Shown: in pieces, positions 20,035 to 46,624 of the stretch
How positions within the stretch are numbered: the first letter of the stretch is position 1
Layout of the letters: the number at the start of each line of letters is the position of its first letter
Assembly (NCBI RefSeq): GCF_013141915.1
Contig: NZ_SROX01000002.1
Coordinates: forward strand, 558,001 to 622,000
Origin: Cupriavidus necator
GTDB lineage: Bacteria; Pseudomonadota; Gammaproteobacteria; Burkholderiales; Burkholderiaceae
Direction: 5' to 3'
Length of the DNA: 64,000 nt
Translations under genes and position numbers: made by a program
The notes under the pieces: model-generated
The model's input: only the letters and a program-made list of their open reading frames with translations
Database searches by the model: none
Told to the model about the DNA's origin: nothing

Positions 20035-20104
20035 ACGTGAAATCTGTACCTAGCGTCCGACGAGAGTGGCTGGGCAGGCAAACTTGAAAATATTCGGTAG
20101 TTAC

Positions 20105-24854: not shown

Positions 24855-24925
24855 GCTGGGTCCTCTTTACGCTCTGCGTGGTTGGTTTTGCTGTTTCGCA
24901 AACGCCTGGTAACCCGACGCACCGG

Positions 24926-25261
24926 TCATCCGCGTGCCGTAGGTACTGCCGTGTTTGCGCTTCGACAACATGGGTCACTTCCGCCGATTTCTTCGCCGCG
25001 AAACCACACCTCTTTGAGTTTTTGCTGAGCCTCGCGCTCTGGCGCATCGGGAACAAGGTGCCCCTTGACGAAGTCGCCTACCAGCTGTCGCATTGTCTTC
25101 TTGTTGATGGTAGCCTCTCGTTCCTCTCGGCGCGCCTGCAGTTCACTGGCATAACCGTCGATTGCCGCCTCGGTCAAAATGAATTTCAGCAATCTCTCCT
25201 TCTGCTGAAAGAGAAGCAGATTGCGTCCAATCTTCTGCAGCACCTCTTCTTTGGACACCAT
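24926..25261 (-). CDS. Conserved-looking hypothetical protein, 111 aa
   Basis: Placed between druE and qatA on the same strand. The N-terminal 75 residues are a neat helical unit (SKEEVLQKIGRNLLLFQQKERLLKFIL ... TINKKTMRQLVGDFVKG), of a type I believe recurs in bacteria without a named family; the rest is less ordered. It begins with ATG after a short gap. It could be an accessory of either system or an independent gene. No toxin or nuclease motif was seen. Confidence 0.45.
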   Translation of the reverse strand: MVSKEEVLQKIGRNLLLFQQKERLLKFILTEAAIDGYASELQARREEREATINKKTMRQLVGDFVKGHLVPDAPEREAQQKLKEVWFRGEEIGGSDPCCRSANTAVPTARG

Positions 25262-25352
25262 GTGTGCCGCGCCAGTGGGGGCGAGTTGAGGCCGTCACAC
25301 TGGAGTCCACCACCCTCAAGAGAGGCCGGTACTGCCTGCGCCATGACCGAGC

Positions 25353-28300
25353 TCACGCTATTCGAAGATAGAAGACTCGGGTCTGAACCCGTTCATTGAG
25401 GAGGTAGTCGATACCACCGGTCAGGAAATATCGGTGGGCTTCCTCACAACCATCTTCCGCCACCGTCACGATATCAACCTCCCGGTCGTGAAACGACTTG
25501 CTGCTCCGCTTAAGTGGGATGACTTCTACATCTCGTTTTTCGAACCCCATCGCGCTAACAAAGTCATCGACGCGACGTTCAACATCTAGGTAAAACTCGA
25601 CATATCCGTCGCGCTCTTTTGTCTCTCGGCAACGAATATTTAAATACTCGATAGAAGCCGCCACTGACCTGACGTATTTCAGAAACTCCTCAAGCCGACC
25701 GACATTCGCTGGCGCTGCACAATAGGGGTCTCTGATTTCGAGGCGCTTGACATAGGCGCCTTTCAGCGGGGCAAAGATATCGCTCAGCTTCCTGGGCTCC
25801 CCCTCGTGCAGTTCCCACATCCCCATCCGCTCGCCTTCCCGGAGAGCTTCTACTCCGTAGGGGACTGCCATCTCCGCAAGCTCAGCGAGCTCTTCCCGAA
25901 CCTGCTCATCCACAGTCCCGATATCTGCCGGTCCGGCAATCATCCGACCCAGCAACGACTGTGCTGCGTAATACTGACGCACAATGGGCGCATTGATTCC
26001 CGTTCCGGCGAATACTCTCGGCAAATTCTGCCAGTTCGAGTTCTCATTCTCCGGAAGGGCAAATAAGCGCAAGCGTCCTTCAAAGACGTAAGGCTGCAGC
26101 CGTCTGTAAGCGGTCAGAGGCACTTGTGCGCGAGGTTTCTCATCCAGCTTATTCACAAGATAGACACTCACAGTCTTACCACTCTGGAGCCACTTTAGGA
26201 GCTGGCTCATCGATTCCTCATCGACGTCACTAACATCAACAAGGCTCCGAACTACGAAGCTAATCTCGCTGTAGTTAGCAAGTCGGTCTGCGAGGCCAGC
26301 CACACTCGGAGAAGCCCACCGAATGTAGTTGCCAGGCCCATCGATGCCTTTGCTGGGGTCCACCAGACCATCCAGCCAAGACAGGGCCGCTTTGCGCTCA
26401 AAACTATCCCAGTAACGTTGGTTTGCGTAGTCGCAAAGGCAGACTCGACAGCCCGATTCACACCCGTCGGGGCAATCAAGACTCTTGCGTGCAGCATCTA
26501 TCAAGGCGGCAAACGAGTACCCGGGCTCGCCAATGCGCGCGCAATAGCCCGCTCCGCCAGGAACCCCGTCATACAAGACAACTTCCAGTGCACCGCCACG
26601 CGCACCCGAGAGCCTGTATATCGCCCGAACTTCGCCAGGATGTAATGAAAGTAGACGAGTTGCGGCCAGCCTAAGTGCCTCAGAGACGGTCCTAGCAATT
26701 CGTTCATGAAAACGACGCGGGGGCAGGTCTGACGACTCCGGGTCGGGCAACGTCTGCACGAACCTCAGAATGCGGACATCGGTGTGGAATTGGTGGACGA
26801 AATCCAGTCCAATTTGTGAGGCAACGTCGTTCTTGCAAATCAAGCCCGTCTGCGGGTCCTTGTGGACAAGTTTCGTCTTATTAGCCCTACCCGCGCCTCT
26901 GTTCTTCGATGCCGTAGCGCCCTTCGCTTGGGGACCAACTGGCTCGCAATAGTTACACACGTAGCAACGCCGATAACCCTCACCATATGCACCACGATTG
27001 GCGATGAAGAGTGCTCCTGTCAGCGCACCATCACCCCTGGCTTTCGCTGACAGGAATGCCGAGCTTAGAAACGGTAGCCCCGTGTCATTGAAAACATCGT
27101 CGCGCGGTGCGGCAATCAGTTTTGCTTCGTCGGCGGCCTTAACCCGTCGTCTGCTTGTGCCCGGGTCTCTCCCCCTGCGTTCGGCAAAACTTGTGACGAA
27201 ACCGTGGGGCTCAACGAACTTGCGTTTGCGACGACCCTCTGTAGAGCCGCAATTGCCGCAGGCGGGAGGAACATCCTCCATGAAGTCGCCTATATCGACG
27301 TGGAAGCACTCGGGACATGCTACATACCACCGCTCTGGCATGAATGCTTTCGGATAATGCGCGAGACCTGCGCTCTCCCAGATACGCCCGTTGGCCACCA
27401 CCTCCGCTCCAGGCGCGTACTCGCTGATGCCGAGCGACGCGTCTCTCGATAGAACGACTTCTGACTTGCTGCCATAGTAGGTACTCGTCGCTTCTGTAAG
27501 TACCTCCAAATTCAATGAATGGACCGGGAAGCTATATGTAGGAATCAAACCACGTCGGGAGAGCTGGTCAACCAAAAACTGTCCCATGAAGTCTTCGCGC
27601 ATCCCCTGCCAATAGCTAGCCTTTCTGTAATCGTTCGCTTGGGCGGCCTCGGCAATTCGCTCCGAGTATTTTCCGAATCGCTCGCACACCTCTTCAGCAA
27701 ACTCACGAACGGCAGCAAGGAAGAGTTCGCGGAGATACGCGCCGCGTGCACCAATCGCGTTGAGCTCGCTCGGAAGCTTTCTCTGCAGTCCCTCAGCTTC
27801 ATCAATCGCCACGCGGCCCTCAGCCGACTCCAGCCATTGCATGAGGCTGTCAGTGAATGCGCGCAGGTCGTCTCGCGCGAATCTCTCTCCAAAGAAGTCC
27901 TTCAGCGAAGGAGCGTTGATATCACCATCTACAATCCTTTTTCGGAGAAAATGCGACAGCAACACCGAAAACTGATGTCTTGTAAACAGCTCCTGGTTGT
28001 CGAGATGGATGAATGGCGTACCCGGGCTCGACGCGAGATAGAAGGGGAAATCCCTCACGACCATTTGGTCGAAATTTGTGTTTCTTGCAACGGTAACGCA
28101 GAATGGAGCAGCTTGGGCACGTCGACCCGCGCGCCCGGTGCGCTGCTGGTAATTTGCAATCCCTGGAGGCACGTTCAAATTGACAACGGCTTCGAGGTCG
28201 CCAAGGTCCACCCCCATTTCCATGGTTGTTGTACAGCAAAGCAGATTGATTTTCCGCTCTGCAAAGTCCCGCTCAATAGATTCACGTAGCTCTGTCGATA

Positions 28301-31274: not shown

Positions 31275-34200
31275 TTTTGGATGTTCTCAGCCTTCTGGAC
31301 CAGTTCCCAAAGAAGGAGGTAGTAGGCAAATACAGCCTCACCAATCTGGAGGAGGTATGTGAGGCTAGGTTCCACAGGAATGCCAGCGCTCCCGAGTACC
31401 TCCATGAATGTGGCCAACCCCCTATCCGAGCGCGCCTCTAGGCGACAATGGAATGCCAATAGGGAAAGCAGATGCGTGATTTGCTCTAGGTTGTCGCTCC
31501 TCTGTGCGACCTCCTCCGGAATGCCATCAACAACCTCCGTCGGCCATGGCGCAACGACGGGCGAGCTACCGGCCAAGCATTTGTGGGAGTTCTGTGGAAA
31601 CGCCGGGAACTTCTGCTTCACGAAACGGCACAGCCCCATCGCCTGCCCCCTCCGGATTTCATTTCCAGCCAGACTGTTCTCATACGCCAATTCGAGCGCT
31701 CGCGTTGCGAATCGAATATGAACCGGCCCAAGCCAGTCTCCATTCAGCGGACGGAAGCTGGCATCCTCTAGCTTGAATGAGTCTTCAATCCCGCCCCCCA
31801 TCTGCCTCATGGCTTCCATGTATGAAGCCAGCTTAAAGCCTCGCGGAGCGCCCCCTCTCTGCATTTCGGATAGGTTGGAAAAGGCGGATGCCGCCGCCAC
31901 ATGAATCAAGTCCGGAAAGACTCCAGGGTACTGAGCCTTCAAATCTGAGATTGCACGCAGTGCCTCAGCGACTCGGTGTGCGCGCTTATTGACTCGGCTG
32001 TAGGCAACAGCCGGTAAGGTGAACATCTCAGGCATGATTGCGCCGGCAGTCTGCTGAAGCAGCCAGCTGGAATTCGCACCTTCGGGAGGGCGCATGCAGG
32101 CGACGTCCACAAGTGTCGTCACTGCTTCAACCGTGCGTCCCTTCCAGCGAGATAGCAGGGCTCTCCATATCCCGGCAATCCATTGGAGGGATTCCCAGCA
32201 CTCCCGCATATAGCAGGTCGACATAGCGTCCTGCACGCGACACAGGACAGCAAGAGACTCTATATCCGTTAGCCCTGATAGGCAGGCGAGAAGCTCATCG
32301 CTTCGAATTGGCCGCCCCTGGTCGTCGCAGATAAACCCAGCCGCAAAGACATCTTGCCGCTGGTTCTCCAATTGCCCCCACATTCCGCCAACTTTGGCGT
32401 CGAATCCAAATATCCAAGCACCAGAGGGCCACTGCTCCAGGTCAAAATACACCGAGACCGTATACCCACCGCTCTTCGCCGGCAAACTTGTTAAGCGAGA
32501 CCGTCCGAATCGATGCCCCGTCCAAACGCCAGTGTTCGCCTCCAGGGTCAGTTCGACGTCCTGACCGGAAATGACATCTCTCGCCCGTATAGCTACAGCC
32601 TGCGCCTCTTCGGACATCGAGAACTCAACTAGGTACTGCCCCTCCACTATCCTTGCCGCCATTCGCGTAACGAACTGTGGCTGCACTAGTCTCAGCAGTT
32701 CGACGTCGAGTCCCGTCCGGTCGCTCTTGAATCGAAGAGAACTAGCCTGCGGGGTAAGGCGACTGGCAAGAAGTGACGCCGGCAAGCGCTTCGAAGGATG
32801 CTTCGCGAAATCAACATGAATCGCCCAGTCACCCACCGACAAGAGCCCCGATTCACTGGAACTCACGAGGATGTGCTTACTCGAAATAGCTGAAACGGAC
32901 TCCACTTCACCAATTGTCCGCATCTGCCGACTAACGCTGCCCGATTCCTGTGTGCTTTCAACCTCGATGAAGATTCCTGGTACGTTCCACGAGAGAACCT
33001 GATATCGCCGCTCGTCAAGCTGGAACACCAGGCGTAATGCCCTTGAGATAGCGTCCCGTGGCTTCAGGACATTGCCATCAATGCGAATGTTCTCATTGAG
33101 CGCCGATTGGAGATTTCGCGGCAGCTGGTCGCACTTGAACTGCATATTGGGCGTAATCTCGGAGAGACCCCACCAGTAGTTCACGGAACTTCTTACCAGT
33201 GTACGATTTTCCCCTGCGCGCGACACCTCAGCGAGGAGACGCACAAAGCCCGGAGCGCACCTATGCTGCTCTAGTGCTTCGGCAACGGCAATAGTTGCTC
33301 TTGATGACGCGTCCACCGAAAAAGGTATCCGCAGCTGCTCGCTGCTACCGGATGCCGACAATGTCAGGACGTAGCCCCCTGCAGCAACGCTAGACCATTC
33401 ACTTGGAAACTCCACATCAAATTCAAGCTGGCCGAAATGGACCTCTATGCCCTCATTAGTGGCCTTGCTAACTCCAGACCATTGTGAGTAGGGCTGTCTG
33501 GCCCCTTGAATAGTCAATGTGGCTGGGCCGTGTCGGAGCGTTGATGTACTACCGGGGTGAACGGAAATGCGGAAGGCGCACACGTAGGGGTCATCCCACA
33601 GTTCCTCCGCTTCGATTCCGGTCGGCTCGAAACGGCTGAGGCAGGTGTAAGAGCCAGGCGGGACGACAATGGGATTAGTATCGTTCGCCTGTAGCTGGCC
33701 AGAGCACTTGAAGCGACCTGTATCCGTAAAAAGAAGTATCCGATTTGTTTTGTCATCCTCCCACAGCTGATACCGGTACGATTGCGTACCGGCCCGCTCC
33801 TGGATGACAACCTTATGCGTGAGAGGTTTGTTGAAAGGGACGAAGGTATCCTCGATACCGGAGTGGTGAAGCACGGCCTCCCCATCAATCCAAAACTCGA
33901 ATTCACGTAGGTCCCCACCAGGGACGAAAATGCCCGCAGTTTCTTCGTTCAGGCTGATGTATGGAAGCGATGCACGTCGAAAGGCGCCCCGATTTCCCTG
34001 CATATCGAATGCCCGCGCCATGGCTCTTTCGACAGGATTACTCGGGTCATCGCTGGATATGCCCCCATGCCTCGCGCTAACACGCAAAAACGCCTGTGTG
34101 TAATATCCCTTCGCATCAAGTGATACAGCCTTCTTGGCTGTCATGCTGAACGGTGGATTCAGGCGGTCCTCTAACGCGCGCTGCCAACTCACGACTGCCT

Positions 34201-34705
34201 CCGGGTCATCTCCGTCGGGTAAGCCGAGCCTTCTAGCGAAGGTGAGCATTCTCTCCGCCAAGTCATCTGCATACGCGAGGGGCACGCCTGCTTGGCGGAG
34301 ATACTCGTTGGCCATGAAGTGTGGCCCTGAAACTATTGGCGACGGTTCAAATCCGAGCTCGATGATTGACCGCCTGAATGCCCGCCAAAGGACATCGCGC
34401 TGCCCCTGCGAAAGAGGCGAGTCCGTTCCGATGGCTCGCTGTATATGGGAATACAGCTCGAAATGCCCAGCCTGCCCCATCCCTTCCATGATGCAAGCGG
34501 TCAGGTGTACAGAGAAAAGCGCAGGATACCGCCGGAGGTACCCCGCGTACATTTCCGCTCCGGGACTAGCGAGGGTCAAGAGCTCGATGCTCACAGTGGT
34601 GGAGGGCCGAAGCGATTCCTTCATAAGGCCCAAAAACGGCACGTCGCTCGACTTAATCGTTGCCCGGAGACTCTCTTCTGCGTCTACTATATGTTGCAAC
34701 TTCAC
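31271..34705 (-). CDS. druH: DruH, Druantia type III large partner
   Basis: 1,144 residues, no known enzymatic domain. It directly precedes druE on the same strand with a four-base overlap; a two-gene druH-druE pair is the definition of Druantia type III. The N-terminal 200 residues are helical, the middle is beta-rich with repeated strand segments (GRFKCSGQLQAND, PGSYTCLSRFEPTG), and the C-terminal 300 residues are helical again (ALLSRWKGRTVEAVTTL). The size and position match DruH; assignment rests mainly on context. The mechanism of Druantia III is not established. Confidence 0.75.
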   Translation of the reverse strand: MKLQHIVDAEESLRATIKSSDVPFLGLMKESLRPSTTVSIELLTLASPGAEMYAGYLRRYPALFSVHLTACIMEGMGQAGHFELYSHIQRAIGTDSPLSQGQRDVLWRAFRRSIIELGFEPSPIVSGPHFMANEYLRQAGVPLAYADDLAERMLTFARRLGLPDGDDPEAVVSWQRALEDRLNPPFSMTAKKAVSLDAKGYYTQAFLRVSARHGGISSDDPSNPVERAMARAFDMQGNRGAFRRASLPYISLNEETAGIFVPGGDLREFEFWIDGEAVLHHSGIEDTFVPFNKPLTHKVVIQERAGTQSYRYQLWEDDKTNRILLFTDTGRFKCSGQLQANDTNPIVVPPGSYTCLSRFEPTGIEAEELWDDPYVCAFRISVHPGSTSTLRHGPATLTIQGARQPYSQWSGVSKATNEGIEVHFGQLEFDVEFPSEWSSVAAGGYVLTLSASGSSEQLRIPFSVDASSRATIAVAEALEQHRCAPGFVRLLAEVSRAGENRTLVRSSVNYWWGLSEITPNMQFKCDQLPRNLQSALNENIRIDGNVLKPRDAISRALRLVFQLDERRYQVLSWNVPGIFIEVESTQESGSVSRQMRTIGEVESVSAISSKHILVSSSESGLLSVGDWAIHVDFAKHPSKRLPASLLASRLTPQASSLRFKSDRTGLDVELLRLVQPQFVTRMAARIVEGQYLVEFSMSEEAQAVAIRARDVISGQDVELTLEANTGVWTGHRFGRSRLTSLPAKSGGYTVSVYFDLEQWPSGAWIFGFDAKVGGMWGQLENQRQDVFAAGFICDDQGRPIRSDELLACLSGLTDIESLAVLCRVQDAMSTCYMRECWESLQWIAGIWRALLSRWKGRTVEAVTTLVDVACMRPPEGANSSWLLQQTAGAIMPEMFTLPAVAYSRVNKRAHRVAEALRAISDLKAQYPGVFPDLIHVAAASAFSNLSEMQRGGAPRGFKLASYMEAMRQMGGGIEDSFKLEDASFRPLNGDWLGPVHIRFATRALELAYENSLAGNEIRRGQAMGLCRFVKQKFPAFPQNSHKCLAGSSPVVAPWPTEVVDGIPEEVAQRSDNLEQITHLLSLLAFHCRLEARSDRGLATFMEVLGSAGIPVEPSLTYLLQIGEAVFAYYLLLWELVQKAENIQK

Positions 34706-34841
34706 GGACCCCTCGCTTTCTTATTTTTCGCCCTACGCCTCGGCTCCGCCGAGACTTATGCCACAGTCCAGCTTAGCCAAGTTAGCGTGAAAGAATCGCT
34801 AGCACACAGTTACATCAACTCCCGCACAGTTCTTTCCCGAG

Positions 34842-37800
34842 CTATCCCCAAGCTTCGCCCAGCGCCTCAGCCTGCCGCAGCACCAGTTCCACAGCTCCAT
34901 CCTGCTGGTCAGGTGGGTACTTGTATTTCCGTAAGATGCGCTTGACCATCAGCCGCAACTTGGCCCTAACGCTCTCTCGTGCGGACCAGTCCACGGTGAT
35001 GTTCTGTCGCAGGTTTTCGGTCAGCTCATGCGCAATCTTCTTCAGCGTCTCGTCAGTCAGTTCTCGAACAGCAGATTCGTTGTTCGCCAAGGCGTCATAG
35101 AAGCGCACCTCATCCTCGGTCAGCCCGAGCTCTTCGCCCCGGCTGGCGGCGGCGTGGAACTTCTTGGCCATGTCGATGAGCTCTTCAATGACTTGGGCGG
35201 TCTCAATCGCTCGGTTCTGATAGCGCTTCACCACGTTTGAGAGCATCTCGGAGAACTTCTTCTCCTGAACCACGTTGCCTGCAAAGCGGCTCTTGATTTC
35301 GCCCTCCAGCAGCCGCTCCAGCAATTCCACTGCCAGGTTGCGTTCCGGCAGGTTTCGAACTTCCGCGAGGAAGGCATCATCCAGGATGCCGATATTAGGC
35401 TTGTCGAGGCCGACCGCCTCGAAGACGTCTATCACTTCTTCTGAGACGACGGCCGAACCGATGATTTGCCGGATGGCCAGTTCGCGCTCCTCATCGGTAC
35501 GCTTCTTCTCGCTGAGCTCCCGTTTGGTCAGGATGACTTTAACGGCCTGCATAAACGCCACTTCCTCCCGGACGGCCTTAGCCTCGTCCAGGGTACAGCA
35601 GAGGGTGAAAGCCTTACTCATGGCAAGCGCCGTGTCGGCAAAGCGCTTTTTGCCGTCTTCCAGGCCCAGCACGTGGTTCGCGGCCCCCGCCAGGCGCTTG
35701 TGACCCGCCGTCAGAAAATCGCTGTAGTCATAGCCATGGAGCATGCCGCACAGGATGTCCATCTTCTCCTCGAGAATGGCATAAGCCTCTGCGGCATCGA
35801 CGGTGGGCCGGCCGCGCCCGTGGCTGGCCGTGTATTCCTTTAGCGCGCTCTTGAGCTCATTGGCGATGCCAATGTAGTCAACCACTAGGCCGCCTTGCTT
35901 GTCCTTGAAGACACGATTGACGCGCGCAATGGCCTGCATCAGGTTGTGGCCCTTCATGGGCTTGTCCACGTACACGGTATGGACACAAGGGGCATCAAAA
36001 CCCGTCAACCACATATCCCGCACGATGACGATGCGCAATGGGTCGGCCGGGTCTTTGAAGCGCTTCTCCAGTCGTTTCTTGACCTGACCGCTGTATATAT
36101 GGGGCCGTAGCAACGCCTTGTCGCTTGCCGAACCCGTCATCACGATTTTGATGGCCCCCTTCTCCGGGTCGGGGTCATGCCAGTCGGGGCGGAGCTGAAT
36201 GATTTCGTTGTAGAGGTGAACGCAAATCTCGCGACTCATGGCGACCACCATGGCCTTGCCGCTCTGAGCCTTGTTGCGCTCCTCAAAGTGAGCCACGAGG
36301 TCTGCGGCTACGGCCGCCACGCGAGGTTCCGCGCCTACGACCTTTTCGAGCGCTGCCCAGCGGCTCTTCAGCTTCGCTTGCTGGCTCTCCTCCTCGTCCT
36401 CAGCCAGTTCGTCCACTTCCGCGTCTATCTGGGGCAGTTCCTCAGCTTTGAGCGATAGCTTGGCGAGGCGGGACTCGAAGTAGATGGCCACTGTGGCGCC
36501 ATCTTCCTTGGCCTGCTGCATGTCGTAGACGTGGATGTAGTCGCCGAACACGGCGCGTGTATCGCGGTCCTCGCTGGATACCGGGGTGCCGGTAAAGGCG
36601 ACGAACGTAGCGTTGGGCAGCGCATCCCGTAGATGCTGAGCATAGCCGACCTGATACTTCTCCTGGCCGGGCTTGCCCTTCAGCTGGGCCTCAAAGCCAT
36701 ACTGGGTGCGGTGGGCTTCGTCGGCTATGACCACGATATTGTGCCGGTCCGACAGCATGGGGAAGACATCTTCGTCTTCCCCCGGCATGAACTTCTGGAT
36801 AGTCGCGAAGACAATTCCGCCGGAAGGCCGGTTGGCCAGCTTCGCCCGCAAGTCCTGGCGCGTTTCGACCTGCACCGGCTGCTCACGCAACAAATCCTGC
36901 GCCAGGGAGAACACGCCGAAGAGTTGCCCATCCAGGTCATTGCGGTCTGTGATGACAACAATGGTCGGGTTCTCCGTTGCCGCTTCCTGCATCACTCGAG
37001 CGGCGAAGCACGTCATGGTGATGCTCTTGCCGCTCCCCTGCGTGTGCCAGACCACACCGCCTTTGTGACTGCCACCGGGCCGGCAGGCCGACACTACTTG
37101 CTGAATGGCGGCACGAACGGCGTGGAACTGGTGATAGCCGGCGATTTTCTTGACAAGCGTGCCATCGTCCTCGAACAGCACGAAGAAGCGCAGGTAGTCA
37201 AGCAGGTAGGCTGGCGCCAGCACTCCACGGACGAGCGTTTCCAACTCATTGAACTGGCCGAGCGGGTCTAGGGTAGCGCCATCGATGGTGCGCCACTGCA
37301 TGTAGCGCTCGGCATTGGCCGAGAGCGAGCCCATGCGTGCTTGCGAGCCGTCACTGATGACCAGGATTTCGTTGTACTGGAAGACGTCGGGAATCTGGTC
37401 CTTGTAGGTCTGAATCTGGTCGTAGGCCTTCCATATATCGGCGTTCTCGTCGGCGGGGTTCTTCAACTCCAGCAGTACCAACGGCAGGCCGTTGACGAAC
37501 ATAATGATGTCAGGCCGCCGGGTGTGATGCGGACCTTTGATGGAAAACTGATTGACGGCGAGCCATTCGTTGGTCGCCGAATTGGCCCAATCGATGAGGC
37601 GAACGAAATCGCCTCGCGTTTCGCCGCCCTTCTGGTATTCGACCGGCACCCCCCCCACCAGCATTTGATGGAAGCGTCGGTTTGCAGAAAGCTGAACGGG
37701 GATGCCCAGGTCTTGAATCTGGCGCACAGCGTCTTCGCGGGCAGCCAGCGGGATGCTTGGGTTCAAGCGTGCAATGGCACAGCGTAGACGTTCAACCAAC

Positions 37801-37928
37801 AGGATTTGGCGGTAGTCGGCGCGCTCGGCGTTCGCTCCATCGCGAGCGATGTCCGGGCCGAAAATCGTGTCATAGCCGACTTCGGAGAGCCAGCCGAGCG
37901 CTTCCTTTTCCAGTTGGTCTTCTGTCAT
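34842..37928 (-). CDS. hsdR: HsdR, type I restriction endonuclease/translocase subunit
   Basis: 1,028 residues, normal length. The N-terminal nuclease has [22 protein letters not shown], the PD-(D/E)xK core with E and K intact. The motor has GSGKSITM near residue 297 and [11 protein letters not shown] near 402 (DEAH), FTGTPV, and a second RecA lobe with [19 protein letters not shown]. The C-terminal helical part binds the methylase core. HsdR cuts DNA after ATP-driven translocation if the HsdS target is unmethylated. It is the last gene of an hsdM-hsdS-hsdR operon, seven bases after hsdS. Confidence 0.93.
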
Positions 37929-37935
37929 GGTGTCT

Positions 37936-39300
37936 TCAGGCTGCGAGGGCTTCTGCTTCTGCCTCAGGGAGACGGAGTTGACCGGATATTAGTCGGGGAA
38001 GAAGGGTATTTCGAATAGCTACCAAGGATGAGACTTGCGTCTGGTTTTCAAAGGCCTTCTCATAAATTGGGCCGGCAATCTCACTGAAAAGACTAATGAC
38101 AGTCTCATCGGGTCGAACAACACGCAGTCGCTTCATATCAGCAACAGTTACATGCCCCAATCCTGTAGTCTGTTTGTTGCGAGCGAGCTCAGCAAACTTC
38201 GGCCGTAAGTACCTGAGCGTTTGGAGGACAAATGACCGCTCTATTGCGCGATGCGGGACCACGCGGAAGATATGCTGATTCAACCATGCTTCGCTGTGAT
38301 GCCAAACGAACGTGTCAATGGACGTATCGGGATTACCAGACCACGAAAATAGAATATCTCCTAGTCGAATGCGATATTTTTCCGACATCTCCACATCAGA
38401 GTACGCCGTCTGGGATGTAACGCCGGCTTTCAATTCGGCAATCTTAATTATTGGTAATCCACGACGTTCAGCGTTGGGGTCAAAAGCCTTGTATGCAGCA
38501 CCATTGATATAACTCGCCAATTCATACACCGGGCATGGCCTCCACCCCTTCGGCACCAGCCCCAACTCCGATTCCTCAAACGCATCTGGAAACAGCGCAG
38601 CGATGGCTTCGTCCATGCCCTCCGGGACCCGACCACTCTGTTTGGCGCGGACGGGGTCGAAGTCGATGAACCAGGATTTGAACAGCGCTTGGGCGATGGC
38701 TTCCAGCGTGGTGCTGTTTTCACGCAGAAGGGAGATTCGCTCGTCGAGAGCGTCAAGAATCCCCGCCATCCGCTCTTGCTCGGCAAGGGGGGGAAGGGGA
38801 ACGACGAACGACTCTATATGGCCTTTAGTGATAGCCCTTCGCGACCCTCCGGCATTAAATCCCTCAATATAAGCCTTGATTAAAGGATGAGTGAGGTAGC
38901 TTAGCACGTAGCCTGGATTTGCCTGCGTTTTGTCCAGACGAATTATAGATACATGTTGGTTTACACATGCAGGCAAGACAGACTCGGGAACCAGACATGC
39001 GCGCCCAAAGGTAGCCCCGTCACCGGTGATGTTCAGCAACAAGTCATCCTTTTTTAGCATCGCATTTCGCAACCCAGCAGCCTGTTCGTCGGAAATGAAA
39101 GCCAAACCGTCGTTAGAGAACGCCCGGTCGAACACGTTCTGGCTACGGACCAATGCATAATTGGTGCGCTTCTCTTGATACGCGGCCTGGCCCCCGGTCG
39201 GTGTTGCGCCCGAGCCAATCTTTGTCGATATGTCTTTCAAGCGAACGAGCCGCCATGAGCTCGGACAGTCGATTGGGGAAACCAAAAACTCAGAACTCAT
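37936..39300 (-). CDS. hsdS: HsdS, type I specificity subunit
   Basis: 454 residues. Two target-recognition domains are present: one from the N-terminus ([24 protein letters not shown] ... [17 protein letters not shown]) and one starting with [16 protein letters not shown]. Each is followed by a conserved long helix ([23 protein letters not shown] and the C-terminal [21 protein letters not shown]), which sets the spacing between the two half-sites. The recognition sequence cannot be read from the protein. The start overlaps the hsdM stop by 11 bases. Confidence 0.92.
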
Positions 39301-40849
39301 ATCCTAGCGCCCCAATTTTCTGCCGAATCAACTGGTCCAGCTCTGCACCCTTCGCCATCTGCTCGCCCAGCTTCTCTGTGAGCTTCTGCATCTTCTCGGC
39401 AAAAGCCTCATCATCGTTCTCAACCTCCTCGGCACCAACATAGCGCCCCGGGGTGAGCACATGGCCGTGCTCCGCAATCTCCGCCAACTTCACGCTGCGG
39501 CAGTAGCCGGGAACGTCTTCATATTTGCCGACGCCTTCGCCAGCCTCATCCCGCCACGCAGCGACGGTATTGGCAATCCTTTCGATGGTTTCGTCGACCA
39601 ATTCCGCCTGGACTCGGCTAATCATGGCCCCAAGCTTCCGCGCGTCGATGAACAGCACTTCACCCTTTCGGGTGATTTTCTGCTTGGTTAGGAACCACAG
39701 GCAGGCAGGAATCTGGGTGTTGAAGAAAAGCTGCCCAGGCAGAGCCACCATGACTTCAACCACATCGGCGTCCACCATCGCCCGACGAATGTCGCCTTCA
39801 CTGTTCTGGCTCGAGCTCATGGAACCGTTGGCCAGGACGATGCCGGCTCGGCCGTTTGGCTTCAGGTGATACAGCATGTGCTGCAGCCACGCATAGTTGG
39901 CATTGCCCTGCGGCGGCGTGCCATAGACCCAGCGGGGGTCGCCCTCCAGGCTGCCGTGCCACCAGTCGCTGACGTTGAAAGGTGGGTTGGCCAAGATGAA
40001 GTCGGCGCGCAGGTCTGGGTGCTGGTTGCGGACAAAGGTGTCAGCAGGTTCCCGCCCCAAGTTGTAGTCGATGCCCCGGATGGCCAGGTTCATGGCCGCC
40101 AGGCGCCAAGTGGTGGGATTGGACTCCTGTCCGTAGATGGACACGTCGCCTAGCTTGCCGCCGTGGGCTTCAATGAATCTTTCCGACTGGACGAACATGC
40201 CCCCGGAACCGCAGCACGGGTCATAGACCTTGCCATGATGGGGCGCGAGGATTGCCACCAGCGTTTTGACGATGGAAGCTGGGGTGTAGAACTGCCCGCC
40301 CTTCTTCCCTTCGGCACTGGCGAACTGGCCAAGGAAGTATTCGTAGACTTGGCCCAGGACATCGCGAGCCTGGCTGGCGTCTTCGCCAAAGCCAATGGTG
40401 GAAATCAGGTCGACCAGTTCCCCCAGCTTCCCATCCGGCAAGTGCGCCCGTGCATAGCGCTTGTCCAGGATGCCCTTGAGCTTGGGGTTCTCCCCCTCGA
40501 TATCGGCGAGTGCCTCATCGATGCGTTTGCCAATGTCCGTCTGCTTGGCCGAGCTGCGGAGGTTCTCCCAGCGAGCCGTCTCGGGCACCCAGAAAACATT
40601 GACTTCCTTGTAGTAGTCCCGGTCTTCCAGCTCTTCCGCGAGCATCTTGTCGTCGCACTCGTGCAGGAAGTACTCGTCGCTTTCATCGCCGAAGCGGCGG
40701 GTCAGCTCGGCCCTCCGGGCGGCAAACGTGTCAGAAATGTACTTGAGGAAGATGAGACCAAGGACGAGATGCTTGTATTCGGCAGCATCGATATTGGCCC
40801 GCAGCTTGTCAGCCGCAGCCCAGAGTGTTTTTTTGATGTCGTCGAGCAT
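39290..40849 (-). CDS. hsdM: HsdM, type I DNA methyltransferase subunit
   Basis: 519 residues. FYTPASIVKTLVAIL and DPCCGSGGMFV form the SAM-binding motif I, and ANPPFN near residue 290 is the N6-adenine catalytic motif. The N-terminal domain (LWAAADKLRANIDAAEYKHLVLGLIFLKYI) is the typical HsdM_N. It methylates adenine in the HsdS target to protect host DNA. Starts the hsdMSR operon. About 230 bp separates it from the DUF2971 gene upstream, on the same strand; the promoter probably lies there. Confidence 0.93.
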   Translation of the reverse strand: MLDDIKKTLWAAADKLRANIDAAEYKHLVLGLIFLKYISDTFAARRAELTRRFGDESDEYFLHECDDKMLAEELEDRDYYKEVNVFWVPETARWENLRSSAKQTDIGKRIDEALADIEGENPKLKGILDKRYARAHLPDGKLGELVDLISTIGFGEDASQARDVLGQVYEYFLGQFASAEGKKGGQFYTPASIVKTLVAILAPHHGKVYDPCCGSGGMFVQSERFIEAHGGKLGDVSIYGQESNPTTWRLAAMNLAIRGIDYNLGREPADTFVRNQHPDLRADFILANPPFNVSDWWHGSLEGDPRWVYGTPPQGNANYAWLQHMLYHLKPNGRAGIVLANGSMSSSQNSEGDIRRAMVDADVVEVMVALPGQLFFNTQIPACLWFLTKQKITRKGEVLFIDARKLGAMISRVQAELVDETIERIANTVAAWRDEAGEGVGKYEDVPGYCRSVKLAEIAEHGHVLTPGRYVGAEEVENDDEAFAEKMQKLTEKLGEQMAKGAELDQLIRQKIGALGYEF

Positions 40850-41083
40850 TGAGGCGCTTCGGGGGTGTTTTAAGCGGAAGCACCATTATGAGGCCAGCCC
40901 CCCCTTCGGCACCACCACACTCCCGTCTGGCGACGCAAAATATTGACGTTCAGTCGGGCATCGACAACAGGGAACGCCAACGTACCCGTCCGTTGGTCGT
41001 GACTTCCGTGCCGGTCTGCGCCGCCCCCAATGGCTGGGAAAAGCAATCATGGAAGCTGTAAGGCCGGCTGTAACGCCCTACCT

Positions 41084-42082
41084 CTAGAAGCGAATGGGGA
41101 TGCTCGAGCAGGTAACGTCAATGACATAGCCTTTACTTTTCAGGAACGCTTTGAGCTTAGTTTCGCGCTCATCCTGAGTGGGTCCGGGTCCGACGATAAT
41201 GCGTCGAATCGGCAAGCGGGGGGCACGTCCGACGTCAAGTCCCTCGAAGAGACGGATATGGGGCACAGACTGGCCGCCGCGCATAAAAGAGTGGCGAGGA
41301 CGTTCGACGAGCTTGCTACCATCAATTTCATGCAGTCGACGTGCACGCTCTCCATTTAGCGTAGCGACAAGGCGGACCTCTCTCTCTTCGGCAAAAGCCC
41401 AATGCTTGTAATGAATGCAGCAGTTCAAAAATGGTTCGAGCACTGGCTCGATAGCCTCAGGCGAACTCCCCCTTTTGAACCATACGCTAAGAGCGTTTCG
41501 CAGAGAGGGGAGGGAATCCAGGCGGCGCTCCATGACCTCCGCCGAGTCAGACGAATAGCTGACGTCGCCGCAACTCAGACGGCATGGCCACACCGAATGT
41601 TCCTGCTCCATGAGCCTTTCGAGTTCGGCGGTATCGAACACTAGTGAGTAGCCCCCGTTACCTCCATAGTATCGCCATTGGCTCAATAATCCATGATTGC
41701 GAGCTTCTGAGTAGTCCCCATTTGGGGTACAAAAGGAGGTTATATAAAACTCAAACAGATTCTCAACTGGGTCACTTTTGTGAAGCGTGTCATGCATCAT
41801 GTCGGCCAAACCCATGCTTTGCTCACGACAAACCGCCTCGACACCACCATTCTCGACTAACCAGCTCTTGGCCTCGGAGTTTGTTGACGCTACCTCGTTT
41901 GCGCGCTCAATGAGTAGAGGTCTTATGATTCCGGCGAGAGCGTGACGAAACTGCAAGAGCTCACTTTCGTCATTAACATGCTTCCAGTGGGTCGCCCACA
42001 GACACTGCGACTCAAGGATTCCGAACAGACCGGACACGCTGGTGTAATGGAACAACTCTGGATACGCCTCTGATATGAGCAT
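41084..42082 (-). CDS. DUF2971 family protein
   Basis: 332 residues. The hallmark is at the start: LFHYTSVSGLFGILESQCLWATHWKHVNDESEL, the Y-T/H-Y-T...W.T...ND layout of DUF2971. The core continues with SLVFDTAELERL and EEREVRLVATL and ends with an alpha/beta strand (RRIIVGPGPTQDERE). The family is uncharacterised; I think of it as distantly related to ADP-ribosyltransferase-like folds, but this is not shown. AGAGG precedes the chosen ATG (MLISEAY); an upstream start would add 17 residues without support. It is transcribed leftward, 186 bp after the SIR2 gene, so the two may form a pair. Confidence 0.75.
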   Translation of the reverse strand: MLISEAYPELFHYTSVSGLFGILESQCLWATHWKHVNDESELLQFRHALAGIIRPLLIERANEVASTNSEAKSWLVENGGVEAVCREQSMGLADMMHDTLHKSDPVENLFEFYITSFCTPNGDYSEARNHGLLSQWRYYGGNGGYSLVFDTAELERLMEQEHSVWPCRLSCGDVSYSSDSAEVMERRLDSLPSLRNALSVWFKRGSSPEAIEPVLEPFLNCCIHYKHWAFAEEREVRLVATLNGERARRLHEIDGSKLVERPRHSFMRGGQSVPHIRLFEGLDVGRAPRLPIRRIIVGPGPTQDERETKLKAFLKSKGYVIDVTCSSIPIRF

Positions 42083-42268
42083 TTCGACCTCTAATAACTT
42101 CAGGTACCTTGTTGTTGCGGCAAATGACACCACGTGTCGCGCTCATCGCGAAGAAGGAAGCAGCTAGGACAACAGCCGTTGAGGACATCGCTAGCCGTCA
42201 CCTGAGCGTATTGGTAGGGAGAATCCGCGAACCGTCGATGGACCAAGCATCAACTGGCTCCGACTGCA

Positions 42269-43831
42269 CTATCGCCAACCATAAACTGCCCTGTCATACA
42301 AGCAGGCAAGCTTCCGGAACGCTGTTGAATACGGCGAGGTCGGCAAGCGGTCAATATGGGCTCTCAAGAATTCGAGAATCGCAGGGTAATCAGCCTCCTC
42401 CCAGTCGGCGAAAGGAAGGTACTGGGCCACAATTTCTGGCGTATACCGCTCCAACATCTGCCGGACTGTCAAGCCCTTGTAATTTCGCATGTAGCCTTTT
42501 GCGAGGCTTTTAACGCGAAAATCCGCCGGCTGCAAACCAAGGTATTTCTCGACGTCATACCCAACTCTGGCACATGCCTCTTGGCTGTCAATTCCAGCAG
42601 TCCTCAGTAGATGGAAAACCGGCAAATATTTCAGCCCCTTGGACAATTCTGGCAATGTTTCCGCCAAAATTCTCCCCGGCTCATAAATTTTCTTGTCACG
42701 AAGAAGCTCCTCATAGATGCTGACAGCAGTAATTGCCCGATACCCATAATCTGCAAGTCGGCGTTCCTCTTCCTGGGCTCGTTCCTTTGCCACACCTACC
42801 CCAACCACAAATTCTATGTCGCCTTTGGCCTCCACCTCATCGATGTCAACAACACAAAGCTTCGCCTCAGGCTCTCCACCCTTCACCAGTTCGTATAGCT
42901 GCTCCTTGCAGTATCTGAGCACGCGAGCGGGAATCTTTCTTCGCTTGGTTTCCAAGGCATTGTAGATTTGACTAAAGTCGTTTGTTCTTAATAATGTAAT
43001 TGGGACATTGGTTTTTTCGAGCGCAAAAACTGTGTTGGATATTGAGGCAGCCTCACCTTCCTTAAGGCGCTCAACAAAGATGAGGTTGTTATTTAATTGC
43101 TCCAACCTCTCCTTTCCAATACAGGCGCAAATGGCGCGCAACATACTGACGATGTTTTGGTCGGAGAGGGAGTACCCCATAAAAATGACAGGGTGCTCGA
43201 CAAAGATTGTTATTAATTTTGCGGCAAGGTAGGCGTTGCGCTCAGCAAAGCTGTCGTAGTCAGCCTCGGTCAAAATTAGGCTTCGAGGTGTATTCACGCA
43301 ACCGTGAATCTTGTATATTTCACCAATTGATTGGGGATTCGAGAACAACAACTCCTCCTGACCTACGTAGACTTTGTAGTCTGGGAATAATTCCTGAAGG
43401 AATGTATCCCAATTTGTGGTTATAATTCCATCCACATTAAGGCGACCAAGTGCAGCCAGCTCTTCGGAATATGGGTGCTGCGCAACACCATCGAGCTTAA
43501 CACCCTTAATATAGTTGGAAATCTCCAACCGCAAGGCAGCAGTAAGGTCAGTAATCTTTTTGCTGTGTTTCTTCCTGCTTTCCTCAAATACTTCACTTTT
43601 CCACCACACCTCATGAAAATCGGACGCCATTAGCGTGGCGACGCGGGGCAGATTACCGTTGGCTGTAGAAAGATAGTATTCGTAGGGCTTGATATGGCTA
43701 CAGAAGCGCTCGAGAAGAGCCGCCCAACTTTCCAGGCCAAGGTATCGTCTTGAAAGGCCGGACCCCGCAAAGAGAAAAGGGCCTGCTGGATGAGCTTCGA
43801 GAAGCTTGGTGAGCTGCTCTAGAATTGACAT
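42269..43831 (-). CDS. Stand-alone SIR2-domain protein, 520 aa
   Basis: Residues 1-290 hold an intact SIR2 fold: GSGLS at 23-27, TTNWD at 138-142, KIHG at 174-177 with catalytic His, and MGYSLSDQNI at 218-227. The remaining 230 residues are a mixed alpha/beta then helical domain (ELSKGLKYLPVFHLL, FADWEEADYPAILEFLRAHID), not an APAZ or SLOG domain that I recognise. Many SIR2 proteins on islands are NADase effectors of abortive systems; sensors usually are their C-terminal half. The DNA is strikingly poorer in G+C than its neighbours, suggesting an independent origin. It is the first gene of the island when entering from glmS. Which trigger it uses is unknown. Confidence 0.8.
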   Translation of the reverse strand: MSILEQLTKLLEAHPAGPFLFAGSGLSRRYLGLESWAALLERFCSHIKPYEYYLSTANGNLPRVATLMASDFHEVWWKSEVFEESRKKHSKKITDLTAALRLEISNYIKGVKLDGVAQHPYSEELAALGRLNVDGIITTNWDTFLQELFPDYKVYVGQEELLFSNPQSIGEIYKIHGCVNTPRSLILTEADYDSFAERNAYLAAKLITIFVEHPVIFMGYSLSDQNIVSMLRAICACIGKERLEQLNNNLIFVERLKEGEAASISNTVFALEKTNVPITLLRTNDFSQIYNALETKRRKIPARVLRYCKEQLYELVKGGEPEAKLCVVDIDEVEAKGDIEFVVGVGVAKERAQEEERRLADYGYRAITAVSIYEELLRDKKIYEPGRILAETLPELSKGLKYLPVFHLLRTAGIDSQEACARVGYDVEKYLGLQPADFRVKSLAKGYMRNYKGLTVRQMLERYTPEIVAQYLPFADWEEADYPAILEFLRAHIDRLPTSPYSTAFRKLACLYDRAVYGWR

Positions 43832-44056
43832 GTATTTTTATGGCACGCCGAATTAATGACAAGCTACTATGGGGCGACGTTAGTTAGAAGTCAATTATGT
43901 TGACGCGCCGTAGGCCAGCCTGCCATCTTCTTCTCGCCTCACATAAGGGCATATGGCTGGCGGTCAGAGGCGTGCATATAGGAGGCAAGGCTAGCTCAGG
44001 CACCGCAACGACTGACGCACGACTGAAGACGATGGTTGGCCCATCTTTTCGACGCA
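43832..44056. other. Intergenic, no gene recognised
   Basis: 225 bp between the SIR2 gene and the short HTH-like frame. No supported coding sequence. It probably holds the promoter of the SIR2 gene, but no convincing boxes were found. Confidence 0.35.
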
Positions 44057-44278
44057 CTACGCTCGCTTTGTCACTGCAGGACATCTGCCCGTCGCCATCG
44101 CAAGGGGAAAGTTGGCCCCAAATAGGCCCTTGGTGGCAAGGCCCAGGGGGACAAGCCGGGCGCGGCGGAGGATAGTCGCGGGGGTGACGCCTAGCAGAAA
44201 GGCTAGGTCGTGGGCGTCGAGATATTCGGGCAGTGCGACCGGGTGACTGCCCGTGGTGGAGCTGGAGAATGTTTGCAT
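44057..44278 (-). CDS. Small HTH-like protein, 73 aa (uncertain)
   Basis: From an ATG within a perfect inverted repeat, the frame reads ... LPEYLDAHDLAFLLGVTPATILRRAR ..., which resembles the single helix-turn-helix of MerR/excisionase-type DNA-binding proteins. The rest is Ala/Leu-rich without pattern, and the C-terminal part may be non-coding, so the gene may be decayed. It sits 280 bp from the transposon-like end. A controller of the SIR2 gene or an Xis-like protein is possible but unsupported. Confidence 0.3.
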   Translation of the reverse strand: MQTFSSSTTGSHPVALPEYLDAHDLAFLLGVTPATILRRARLVPLGLATKGLFGANFPLAMATGRCPAVTKRA

Positions 44279-44283
44279 TCTCC
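44264..44283. repeat. Perfect inverted repeat over a start codon
   Basis: GGAGAATG-TTTG-CATTCTCC, eight-base arms with a four-base spacer. It covers the ATG (minus strand) of the small HTH-like frame and could be an operator or a hairpin that sequesters its start. TATAC lies just outside on the upstream side. Confidence 0.4.
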
Positions 44284-44555
44284 GTATAGCAACGCGCGCC
44301 GCCTCTCCCGGGCACCTGGGCAGGCGTTTAAATCTCGGTCCTATCCTGTTACTGGTGGATGCGAACGGCTCTGCCCCCAGGTGAGGAGAACTCGGGAAGG
44401 CAGCGCTGATGCTCCGCCCCCCCCAACAGCGGCTCGACTTCATCGCGTGACCTAGGCGGTGTGGGAAGGGAAGCGGGTGTGCGAGAAACTCTGCGCCAAT
44501 TTCGGGTCTCATTTCCAAGCCGACATCCGAAGGGCTGCAAATTTGAGGGAGTTGC

Positions 44556-44571
44556 AATAGTTCCGGATACA
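44556..44571 (+). repeat. TnsB-site-like motif, inverted copy
   Basis: AATAGTTCCGGATACA, the same motif as the two sites nearer glmS but in the opposite direction. In an ordinary Tn7 end all sites point the same way, so this copy may mark a second, facing end or a rearrangement. Confidence 0.45.
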
Positions 44572-44582
44572 CGGCTCCGGGC

Positions 44583-44607
44583 CTAGCCTAGCGAGGGGCT
44601 AGGCTAG
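44583..44607. repeat. Hairpin between transposon-site motifs
   Basis: CTAGCCTAGC-GAGGG-GCTAGGCTAG, a perfect ten-base stem with a five-base loop. No T-run follows on either strand. It could be a weak terminator for glmS or structural part of the element end. Confidence 0.4.
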
Positions 44608-44609
44608 CT

Positions 44610-44626
44610 TGTATCCGAAACTATTT
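44610..44626 (-). repeat. TnsB-site-like motif, internal copy
   Basis: On the minus strand AAATAGTTTCGGATACA, one mismatch in its core from the terminal copy and 24 bp inward of it, in the same direction. Helically phased spacing fits protein-bound repeats at a Tn7-like end. Confidence 0.5.
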
Positions 44627-44633
44627 GTATCTC

Positions 44634-44660
44634 TGTATCCGGAACTAATTGTCCTTCACA
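44634..44660 (-). repeat. Putative Tn7-like terminus
   Basis: Read towards the island, the sequence starts TGTGAAGGACAATTAGTTCC and continues GGATACA. The outer TGT and internal AGTTCCGGATACA motif fit a Tn7-like terminal repeat with a TnsB site. It begins 25 bp past the glmS stop. Confidence 0.55.
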
Positions 44661-44685
44661 CAGCGCCAGCTCTCGATTCGGCGCC
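44661..44685. other. attTn7-equivalent spacer downstream of glmS
   Basis: Exactly 25 bp separate the glmS stop from the putative transposon terminus, the known Tn7 insertion distance. A five-base target duplication would have one copy here (GCGCTG region, minus strand) and its partner at the far end of the element, outside the window. Confidence 0.55.
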
Positions 44686-46524
44686 TTACTCCACCGTCAC
44701 CGACTTCGCCAGGTTGCGCGGCTTGTCCACGTCGGTCCCGCGCGCGCAGGCCGTGTGGTATGCCAGCAGCTGCAGCGGCACCACGTGCAGGATCGGCGAG
44801 AGGTCGCCGTAGTGCTCGGGCATGCGGATCACCTGGATGCCATCGGACGACTGGATCTGCGTATCGCTGTCGGCAAACACGTACAGGCGGCCGCCGCGGG
44901 CGCGCACTTCCTGGATGTTGGACTTGAGCTTCTCCAGCAGCGCGTCGTTGGGCGCGACGGTAACCACCGGCATGGCTTCGGTGACCAGCGCCAGCGGGCC
45001 GTGCTTGAGCTCGCCGGCCGGATAGGCCTCGGCGTGGATATACGAGATTTCCTTGAGCTTGAGCGCACCCTCCAGCGCGATCGGGTAGTGCAGGCCGCGG
45101 CCAAGGAACAGCGCGTTCTCGCGGCGGGCGAAGTCCTCGGACCAGGCGATGATCTGCGGCTCCAGCGCCAGTACGCCGTGCAGCGCGGCGGGCAGGTGGC
45201 GCAGGTTGGTCAGGGCCTTGGCCTCGGCCTCTTCGGTCAGCAGGCCGCGGGTCTTGGCCAGCGACAGCGTCAGCATGTACAGCGCCGCCAGCTGCGTGGT
45301 GAACGCCTTGGTAGACGCCACCCCGATCTCGGTGCCGGCGCGCGTGAGGAAGCGCAGTTCGGTCTCGCGCACCATGGCGCTGGTGGCGACGTTGCACACC
45401 GCCAGCGTATGGACATGGCCGAGCGCGCGCGCGTGGCGCAGCGCGGCCATGGTATCGGCGGTTTCGCCCGATTGCGAGATCACCACCACCAGCGCGCGCG
45501 GATTGGGCACGGTGTCGCGATAGCGGTATTCGCTGGCGACCTCGACCTGGGTCGGGATCTTCGCGATGCTTTCTAGCCAGTACTTGGCGGTGCAGCCGGA
45601 ATAGTAGCTGGTGCCGCACGCCAGGATCAGCACGCTGTCGATGCCGGCGAAGACCTCGGCGGCGTTGGCGCCGAACAGGTCCGGCGACAGGCCTTCGACG
45701 CCCTCGAGCGTGTCGCCCAGCGCGCGCGGCTGCTCGAAGATTTCCTTCTGCATGAAATGGCGGTACGGGCCCAAGTCGACCGATGCGGCATGGGCTTCGA
45801 CCAGGCGCGCTTCCCGCTCGACCGGGTGGTCGTCGGCGTCATGGATGGTCACGCCGTCCAGCGTGATCTCGACCACATCGCCCTCTTCCAGGTAGATGAT
45901 GCGGTTGGCGGTGCCGGCCACGGCCAGCGCGTCGGACGCCAGGAAGGACTCGTTCTCGCCCAGCGCCACCACCAGCGGCGAGCCCGCACGCGCGCCGACC
46001 ACGCAGCCCGGCTGGTCTTTGGCGAACACGGCGATGGCATAGGCGCCGTGCAGGCGCTTGGTGACGGCACGCACCGAGGCGAACAGGTCGCCGCGGGTAG
46101 CGCTGCTGGGATAGCTGTAGGCCTGGTGGATCAGGTGGGCGACCACCTCGGTATCGGTCTGGGACTCGAAGCCGTAGCCGACCGCACGCAGCTCTTCGCG
46201 CAGCGGCTCGTAGTTCTCGATGATGCCGTTGTGCACCAGCGCGATGGTCTCGCCCGACAGGTGCGGGTGGGCGTTGACGGTATCGGGCTTGCCATGCGTG
46301 GCCCAGCGCGTATGCGCCACGCCGGTAAAGCCGGAGAGGCCGGACGCCTGCGTCTGCGCGTCCAGGTCGGCGACGCGCGACACGGTGCGTGCGCGCTCGA
46401 CCGCATCGTCGCGCACGACGGCAACGCCGCACGAGTCATAGCCGCGATACTCGAGGCGGCGCAGCCCTTCGATCAGGACCGGAACGATATTGCGCGTGGA
46501 AACCGCGCCGACGATGCCACACAT
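44686..46524 (-). CDS. glmS: GlmS, glucosamine-6-phosphate synthase
   Basis: 612 residues. The start at MCGIVGAV exposes the catalytic Cys2 after Met removal. The N-terminal glutaminase ([18 protein letters not shown]) is followed by two SIS domains ([28 protein letters not shown] region) and the usual C-terminus [13 protein letters not shown]. It converts fructose-6-phosphate and glutamine to glucosamine-6-phosphate for peptidoglycan and lipopolysaccharide. It lies just downstream of glmU on the same strand, with which it provides the first and last steps. The conserved C-terminal codons form the recognition site for TnsD-type proteins and are intact here, consistent with the insertion beyond them. 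Confidence 0.97.
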
Positions 46525-46624
46525 GCTGAACCCCCGTTTTGCTGGCGCCTGCCCGCAGGCCACTGGCGCCGGTATGAATCCTGTGGCGCCACCCTGCGCG
46601 GGCGGCGCTTGAGCTTACTGCTGC

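Follow-up and report, generated by a model that had tools for sequence, protein, structure and literature searches.

A 52.5-kb Tn7-like transposon inserted beside glmS in Cupriavidus necator carries a defence block and encodes a TnsC homologue without Walker motifs

Introduction

What has brought a block of defence genes to the place immediately past glmS in Cupriavidus necator? We address this question for a window of 64,000 nucleotides, this term designating the whole stretch of DNA analysed (G000:C22:558001-622000, as placed by a DNA search of the organism's own genome). Tn7 of Escherichia coli inserts about 25 bp beyond glmS with its right end facing this gene. Its genes are arranged in the order A-B-C-D-E, its target duplication comprises 5 bp and the TnsB sites of an end all have one orientation. 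A first-pass annotation of the window had noticed a Tn7-like end exactly 25 bp past glmS, at the attTn7 position, had taken the motifs present there for TnsB-type sites and had offered this end as the physical explanation of the whole defence block. That defence genes occur on Tn7-like elements is already known (PMC8649781).

Results

The motifs past glmS form the right end of a complete Tn7-like element

The stop codon of glmS, which is encoded on the minus strand, occupies positions 44686-44688 and the terminal base of the element is 44660, so that exactly 25 bp (44661-44685) separate the element from the stop, just as claimed at first reading. Read away from glmS, the sequence 25 bases beyond the stop is TGTGAAGGACAATTAGTTCCGGATACA. 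With at most one mismatch, the motif AGTTCCGGATACA is present in three copies in the 64-kb window, all of them at this end (Table 1), compared to a chance expectation of 0.04 copies on average; three copies were reached in 0 of 100 shuffles. The starts assigned to the first two motifs in the first-pass annotation (44634 and 44610) are correct, while that of the third one (44556) is a few bases off, the 16-bp inverted site corresponding to 44555-44570.

A DNA search of the own genome revealed a similar motif at C22:550277, upon which the sequence neighbouring the window on its left was examined. The partner end that had been proposed to lie in this direction is indeed present at C22:550115. It starts with TGTGAGCAACAAATAG, in register with the right terminus TGTGAAGGACAATTAG, and contains TGTGAGCAACAAATAGAACCGGATAC as well as two further sites. 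Both ends begin with 5'-TGT and harbour repeated candidate transposase sites, recognised as such by sequence, with the same site sequence at the two ends; the reading of the motifs as TnsB-type sites holds. The Tn7-like element extends over C22:550115-602660 (52,546 bp), its left end and tns genes being situated immediately to the left of the window. Both ends are abutted exactly by CAGC, a direct repeat of 4 bp. Between C22:520001 and C22:622000, matches to the motif at no fewer than 13 of 18 bases are confined to the two ends, plus a weaker site at window position 265. GC content in sliding windows amounts to 49-60% inside the element versus 61-72% outside.

Evidence for the insertion is provided by related genomes. 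Sixty genomes of the genus, among them the own one, were sampled from a larger group and all proved to contain glmS; the glmS-locus DNA of 29 relatives was examined for empty sites. Five uninterrupted same-genus loci (L013, L015, L016, L017 and L020) have a TetR-type gene directly after glmS, and the TGT motif is absent from that place in every one of them. Since the same TetR-type gene flanks the left end of the G000 element, the island is an insertion at this position. With a partner end, five tns genes beside it and empty sites in relatives, the assignment to attTn7 is borne out: the three motifs constitute the right end of a complete and seemingly intact Tn7-like transposon, and the defence block is its cargo, which supplies the physical explanation that had been offered for it. 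Neither of the two findings named in the first-pass annotation as speaking against its reading, a TGT motif in relatives without the island or the lack of a second end and of tns genes, was made.

Table 1. Coordinates of the element, its right end and its cargo within the window.
Feature	Position	Strand	Remarks
Part of the element inside the window	1..44660		remaining 7,886 bp leftward: tnsC, tnsD, tniQ, tnsA, tnsB and left end
Short Argonaute (prokaryotic) and SIR2-domain partner	6845..10161	-	Pfam/PADLOC
McrBC-like restriction pair (AAA_5 and McrBC)	14833..18587	-	Pfam/PADLOC
QatA, QatB, QatC, QatD	20105..24854	-	Pfam/PADLOC
Druantia DruE-like helicase	25353..31274	-	Pfam/PADLOC
Type I restriction-modification (M, S, R subunits)	34842..40849	-	Pfam/PADLOC
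SIR2-domain defence candidate	42269..43831	-	PADLOC PDC-S25
Right (glmS-proximal) end of the Tn7-like element	44555..44660	-	terminus 5'-TGTGAAGGACAATTAG, reading inward
Candidate TnsB site, inverted third (16 bp)	44555..44570	+	inward positions 91-106
AGTTCCGGATACA copy, inverted	44559..44571	+	
Perfect inverted repeat CTAGCCTAGC / GCTAGGCTAG	44583..44607		between second and inverted site; read from sequence
AGTTCCGGATACA copy, second	44610..44622	-	1 mismatch
Candidate TnsB site, second	44611..44626	-	inward positions 35-50
AGTTCCGGATACA copy, outermost	44634..44646	-	
Candidate TnsB site, outer	44635..44650	-	inward positions 11-26
Target duplication CAGC (4 bp), right copy	44661..44664		left copy outside the window at C22:550111-550114
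Spacer between element and glmS stop (25 bp)	44661..44685		includes the duplication
glmS, target gene	44686..46563	-	SIS and GATase domains

Two further properties of the cargo deserve mention. An ORF of 1144 aa (31271-34705), which adjoins the DruE-like gene, produced no Pfam or PADLOC match, and a PADLOC scan of 18 cargo ORFs gave a single Cas match, namely a weak one of the DruE-like ORF to Cas3 helicase. At 3333-4620, three adjacent small minus-strand ORFs, apparently tandem paralogues, have the stretch WRVLETYRGERHLVG and variants thereof in common.

The tns operon represents a divergent branch

Five minus-strand ORFs adjoin the left end. In the order of transcription these are P0005 (432 aa, TnsC), P0004 (490 aa, Pfam TnsD), P0003 (533 aa, Pfam TniQ), P0002 (262 aa, TnsA) and P0001 (786 aa, TnsB), the stop of the latter being located 358 bp from the left terminus. 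While TniQ (E 3e-6) and TnsD (E 8e-10) matched Pfam above the curated cut-off, single-sequence searches with P0001, P0002 and P0005 gave no Pfam or NCBIfam match at E 0.01 and, at E values up to 10, only a weak TnsA match (0.14). Family profiles of the same proteins recognised their Tn7 counterparts with E values of 7e-15 (TnsC), 1.5e-12 (TnsB) and 2e-10 (TnsA). Correspondingly, phmmer of the PDB with TnsB alone yielded nothing useful although the family profile did match Tn7 TnsB, and a scan of genome contigs with the single TnsB sequence found no relative whereas an alignment query found five. Hence, by broad criteria, the element is Tn7-like in that a TnsB-type DDE transposase adjoins other core proteins, accompanied by a TniQ/TnsD selector and a TnsC homologue. 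Invariant residues in the alignments are E66, D113 and K134 of TnsA and D361, D363, D449 and E485 of TnsB. Their spacing, together with what is known of Tn7, leads us to take them as the catalytic ones.

The Pfam seeds used by Benler 2021 and Faure 2023 were PF08721/PF08722 for TnsA, PF00665 for TnsB as well as PF11426 and PF05621 for TnsC, with PF13401 also included in Faure (PMC8649781, PMC10293859); Benler 2021 used CAST alignments as well (PMC8649781). In the branch described here, none of seven TnsB and none of eight TnsC proteins matches any Pfam model at 0.01, so that defence islands carried in this way have likely been undercounted; PF08722 is matched by five of eight TnsA proteins. 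We found no published description of this branch, members of which may be included in the supplementary lists of Benler and Faure.

A family-wide search with P0001 gave matches at 1e-10 in 24 of 299 genomes, own included. When TnsC was searched for at 1e-20, two genomes matched among 399 of the order and two among 398 of the phylum, in both cases the own one plus a member of the same family; at 1e-12, matches were found in 22 of 398 genomes of the family. Gene-by-gene inspection of 16 loci, this element included, revealed the order tnsC-tnsD-tniQ-tnsA-tnsB to be complete in 13; the Parab locus gave no tniQ match and that of G245 is cut by a contig end. The element belongs to a divergent Burkholderiaceae branch characterised by this order. 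In a further locus (L133, G341:C37:20219-28193) two TnsC-like genes are present (C-D-C-A-B), the second of which replaces tniQ, and no TniQ match was obtained. The own genome contains, from G000:C43:300215 onward (L073), a second, distant Tn7-like operon of the same gene order whose TnsB is 28% identical and whose TnsC contains GIGKGAF; no other end of it could be detected on the stretch examined.

Among the five tns-bearing insertions at glmS, TnsD is 463-540 aa long, as judged by ORF length or, in G328 and G352, by match length. Shorter proteins of 292, 350 and 293 aa are encoded by G069, G161 and Parab, respectively, none of which is at glmS in the stretches examined. As a sole predictor of glmS targeting, TnsD length had to be rejected because G156 possesses a TnsD of 540 aa yet lies 58 kb away from glmS, so that the association has exceptions.

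TnsC lacks both Walker motifs

The search for TnsC ORFs covered 32 loci (26 profile-match loci, five found by alignment and a Paraburkholderia plasmid locus). All but L119 gave a TnsC row, and removal of two duplicates from these 31 left 29 for comparison. As judged by pattern, both Walker motifs are present in seven, Walker B alone in two and neither in 20, among which L111 and L123 retain GIGKGA but lack the subsequent S or T. Fifteen rows around the G000 TnsC, all without either motif, constitute one clade (SH-aLRT 99) in a quick, midpoint-rooted tree. The P-loop region reads APARTGRGR in this TnsC versus GCSGSGKTT in Tn7. An AlphaFold2 model built from an alignment of five sequences for the TnsC of a relative (L096) rather than for that of G000 reached a pLDDT of 68.1 and a pTM of 0.72, and in a Foldseek search with this model Tn7 TnsC chains occupied ranks 1-21 (best E 6e-13).

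ATP binding and hydrolysis by TnsC are commonly regarded, as is described in part in PMC11406308, as the switch which couples target choice to Tn7 transposition. According to the same source, a Walker B mutation renders Tn7 hyperactive, and V-K CASTs have been reported to include natural TnsC proteins devoid of canonical Walker A and/or B motifs (PMC11406308). In view of this precedent, we do not claim the loss of the motifs as such to be new. As both ATPase motifs are lost, the TnsC-like protein is probably a scaffold and not an ATP-driven switch, and TnsC of this branch would work without ATP.

The absence of Walker A and Walker B would also suit a decaying or repurposed paralogue whose task is performed by a canonical TnsC encoded elsewhere in the genome, an arrangement to which the separate location of tns genes in the Cupriavidus metallidurans element (PMC3384475) might lend some plausibility. 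Yet all 16 loci inspected, including the one truncated by a contig end, have tnsC as the first tns gene, and 25 of the 26 listed TnsC profile matches have no internal stop. Its pN/pS of 0.22 (G194 versus G352) and 0.27 (L097 versus L098) falls within the range of the other tns genes (0.17-0.36), which shows tnsC to be under purifying selection between these two pairs of relatives. Since, moreover, the loss of the motifs spans the entire supported clade of 15 rows, we regard a dispensable paralogue as unlikely and the TnsC-like protein as probably a working component of the element.

Flanking repeats are mostly 4 bp long

A de novo inverted-repeat scan for ends proved to be weak, as in a control it ranked the true pair of G000 only seventh, though that of G161 first. 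It missed G352, which was found via its glmS site; the pair of G018, the fourth row of the scan, was selected by eye before its site layout and 5-bp repeat were found; and the ends of G156 were paired by sequence alone, without a flanking repeat. No pair that convinced was obtained for Parab, G341, L097, L098 or the own C43 copy, and L099 showed only one end. These six were left out of the end counts, as was G245, which runs into the end of its contig.

Ten elements could be delimited, nine of which bear tns genes, the tenth being that of G029 (15.8 kb, without match to these tns genes). A 4-bp repeat flanks six of them (G000 CAGC, G161 TCCG, G194 GGTG, G242 ATTG, G328 TATG, G352 GGAT) and a 5-bp repeat three (G069 GCCGC, G018 CCATG, G029 GTGCT), while G156 shows none. 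The result is mixed, 4 bp being the common but not the sole repeat length. The five-base duplication foreseen in the first-pass annotation is absent from the G000 element, the 5-bp flanks of which read GCAGC and CAGCG. In a single element a four-base match could be due to chance (about 1 in 256, calculated by hand). G194 and G242 could be accounted for by a 5-bp duplication if one end were displaced by a single base; since this fails for G000, G161 and G328 it was rejected as a common rule.

If the two ends originated from different insertions, the element would be a mosaic of nested Tn7-like elements the outer ends of which survived by chance, a reading favoured by the lack of a 5-bp duplication at its flanks. 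Relatives do offer tandem or nested ends: G156 has further tnsB- and tnsC-like genes near its element, and in G242 a same-family right-end sequence occurs for a second time, in the same orientation, some 4 kb beyond the left end (C3:325394, L090), a tandem insertion perhaps reflecting weak target immunity. Against such a mosaic stand the 4-bp repeat, which abuts both ends exactly and recurs as a pattern in five other complete elements, the site sequence common to the two ends and the confinement of the motif, within C22:520001-622000, to these ends and the weaker site at 265. We therefore consider a mosaic to be quite improbable and treat the element as one insertion.

An inverted site is fixed in the right end

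Both ends were placed for the nine tns-bearing elements, for eight in one test and for G352 separately, the test being constructed such that the outermost site starts at position 11. All nine have, at inward positions 88-92 of one end, an inverted copy of their own site (at least 12 of 16 bases). The other end contains a third direct site at 153-169 in eight, whereas none was detected in G194. Weak matches were observed as well, namely an inverted site at 88 (12/16) in the other end of G242 and a direct site at 156 (11/16) in the inverted-site end of G352. In the inverted-site end a second direct site was detected at 33-36 in six of the nine. Background matches inside eight of the elements, at a threshold of 11, number 0.05-0.22 per 260 bp. 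The site sequences vary among the elements (..GGATAC, ..GTTAC, ..CTTAA, ..GCCAA) while their positions stay constant. In all five tns-bearing glmS insertions (G000, G194, G242, G328, G352) the inverted-site end faces glmS, and these insertions start 24-25 bp beyond the stop in the same orientation. For comparison, the right end of Tn7 has four overlapping TnsB sites and its left end three spaced ones (PMC13370975).

A layout test which uses no motif was applied to 30 regions downstream of glmS within the genus (G000 and 29 relatives), 14 of which have no TG at 22-28 bp and were left unscored. G000 came first (28), followed by G029 (23) and G030 (22), with G002 (18) at the 95% level; of 280 random background places 99% scored 20 or less and the highest 22, though up to seven start positions per region compared to one for the background somewhat favour hits. 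Further attTn7 ends with an inverted site thus exist in G029, G030 and, more weakly, G002.

That the third, inverted motif represents a facing end, be it of a remnant or of a second element, as the first-pass annotation had considered and as its orientation relative to the two outer sites and its identity with the outermost copy at 13 of 13 bases might invite one to think, is highly improbable, because it recurs at 88-92 in all nine tns-bearing elements despite their differing site sequences and again at these further attTn7 ends. The inverted site is a positionally conserved part of the right end in this family.

The G029 element (L155, G029:C1:465692-481482) is situated at attTn7, 26 bp beyond the stop, and shows the same right-end layout. 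Flanked by its 5-bp repeat, it carries transporter-like and other cargo and is possibly a non-autonomous passenger. The right-end-like sequences with an inverted third site just past glmS in G030 (L159) and G002 (L163), for which no match to these tns genes was found within 80 kb and 13 kb, respectively, are solo ends or remnants.

The weaker site inside the G000 element (265-282, plus strand) matches the TnsB-type site at 14 of 16 bases and lies about 300 bp upstream of tnsC, where it could possibly serve as an operator. In seven other elements a site at that place is weak (11/16) in two and absent from five, so an autoregulatory operator is not claimed.

Discussion

The element resembles Tn7 in its location some 25 bp from glmS, to which the right end is proximal, its TGT ends, several candidate TnsB sites per end and homologues of TnsA, TnsB, TnsC and TnsD. 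Unlike Tn7, it has the gene order C-D-Q-A-B at the far end, two TniQ-type proteins, a TnsC without Walker A and B, a 4-bp CAGC repeat and an inverted site at inward position 91 of the right end. Cupriavidus metallidurans is a betaproteobacterium and probably belongs to the same family. The Tn7-like island of its strain CH34 (TnsABCD1D2) likewise has two tnsD-type genes (PMC3384475). To the extent that the published description allows a comparison, it differs in lying off attTn7 and in consisting of TnsABC plus D1 and D2 (PMC3384475). BGImetal islands of Burkholderia are Tn7-like cargo islands in a related genus too; as described, they were found with Pfam seeds and are arranged tnsA-tnsB-tnsC-tniQ (PMC10702557). 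With type V-K CASTs the element has in common a TnsC without canonical Walker motifs (PMC11406308), but its TnsC is closest to that of Tn7, its TnsA contains the catalytic residues and it is located at glmS. The kind of element is known; what is new is the branch, its chief interest being the TnsC without ATPase motifs and the fixed inverted site of the right end.

Very probably, the locus is best explained by a complete, seemingly intact 52.5-kb Tn7-like transposon which was inserted at attTn7 and would be moved by TnsABCD/TniQ in the following way. The long TnsD (P0004) would read the 3' end of glmS, and its TniQ part would recruit the TnsC-like protein, which probably acts as a scaffold and would in turn bring in the transposase. 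TnsB, a DDE-type enzyme, would bind to the sites, which are arranged asymmetrically between the two ends, and join the 3' CA ends to the target. TnsA would cut the other strands, so that the whole defence block would move by cut-and-paste, possibly to this day. The right end, with two direct sites and an inverted one about 90 bp in, probably helps to set which end faces glmS.

Whether this holds for a whole Tn7-type branch with Pfam-invisible TnsB and TnsC, in which a pseudo-ATPase scaffold, a fixed inverted site, mostly 4-bp staggers and glmS homing go together, appears to us evenly balanced. A glmS-homing family with catalytic TnsA and TnsB residues and a Walker-less TnsC raises the question of whether ATP is needed for targeting. 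Finally, as the ends retain their layout despite changes in site sequence, this layout provides a motif-free signature for finding such elements, which has pointed to two further attTn7 ends in the genus, those of G029 and G030.
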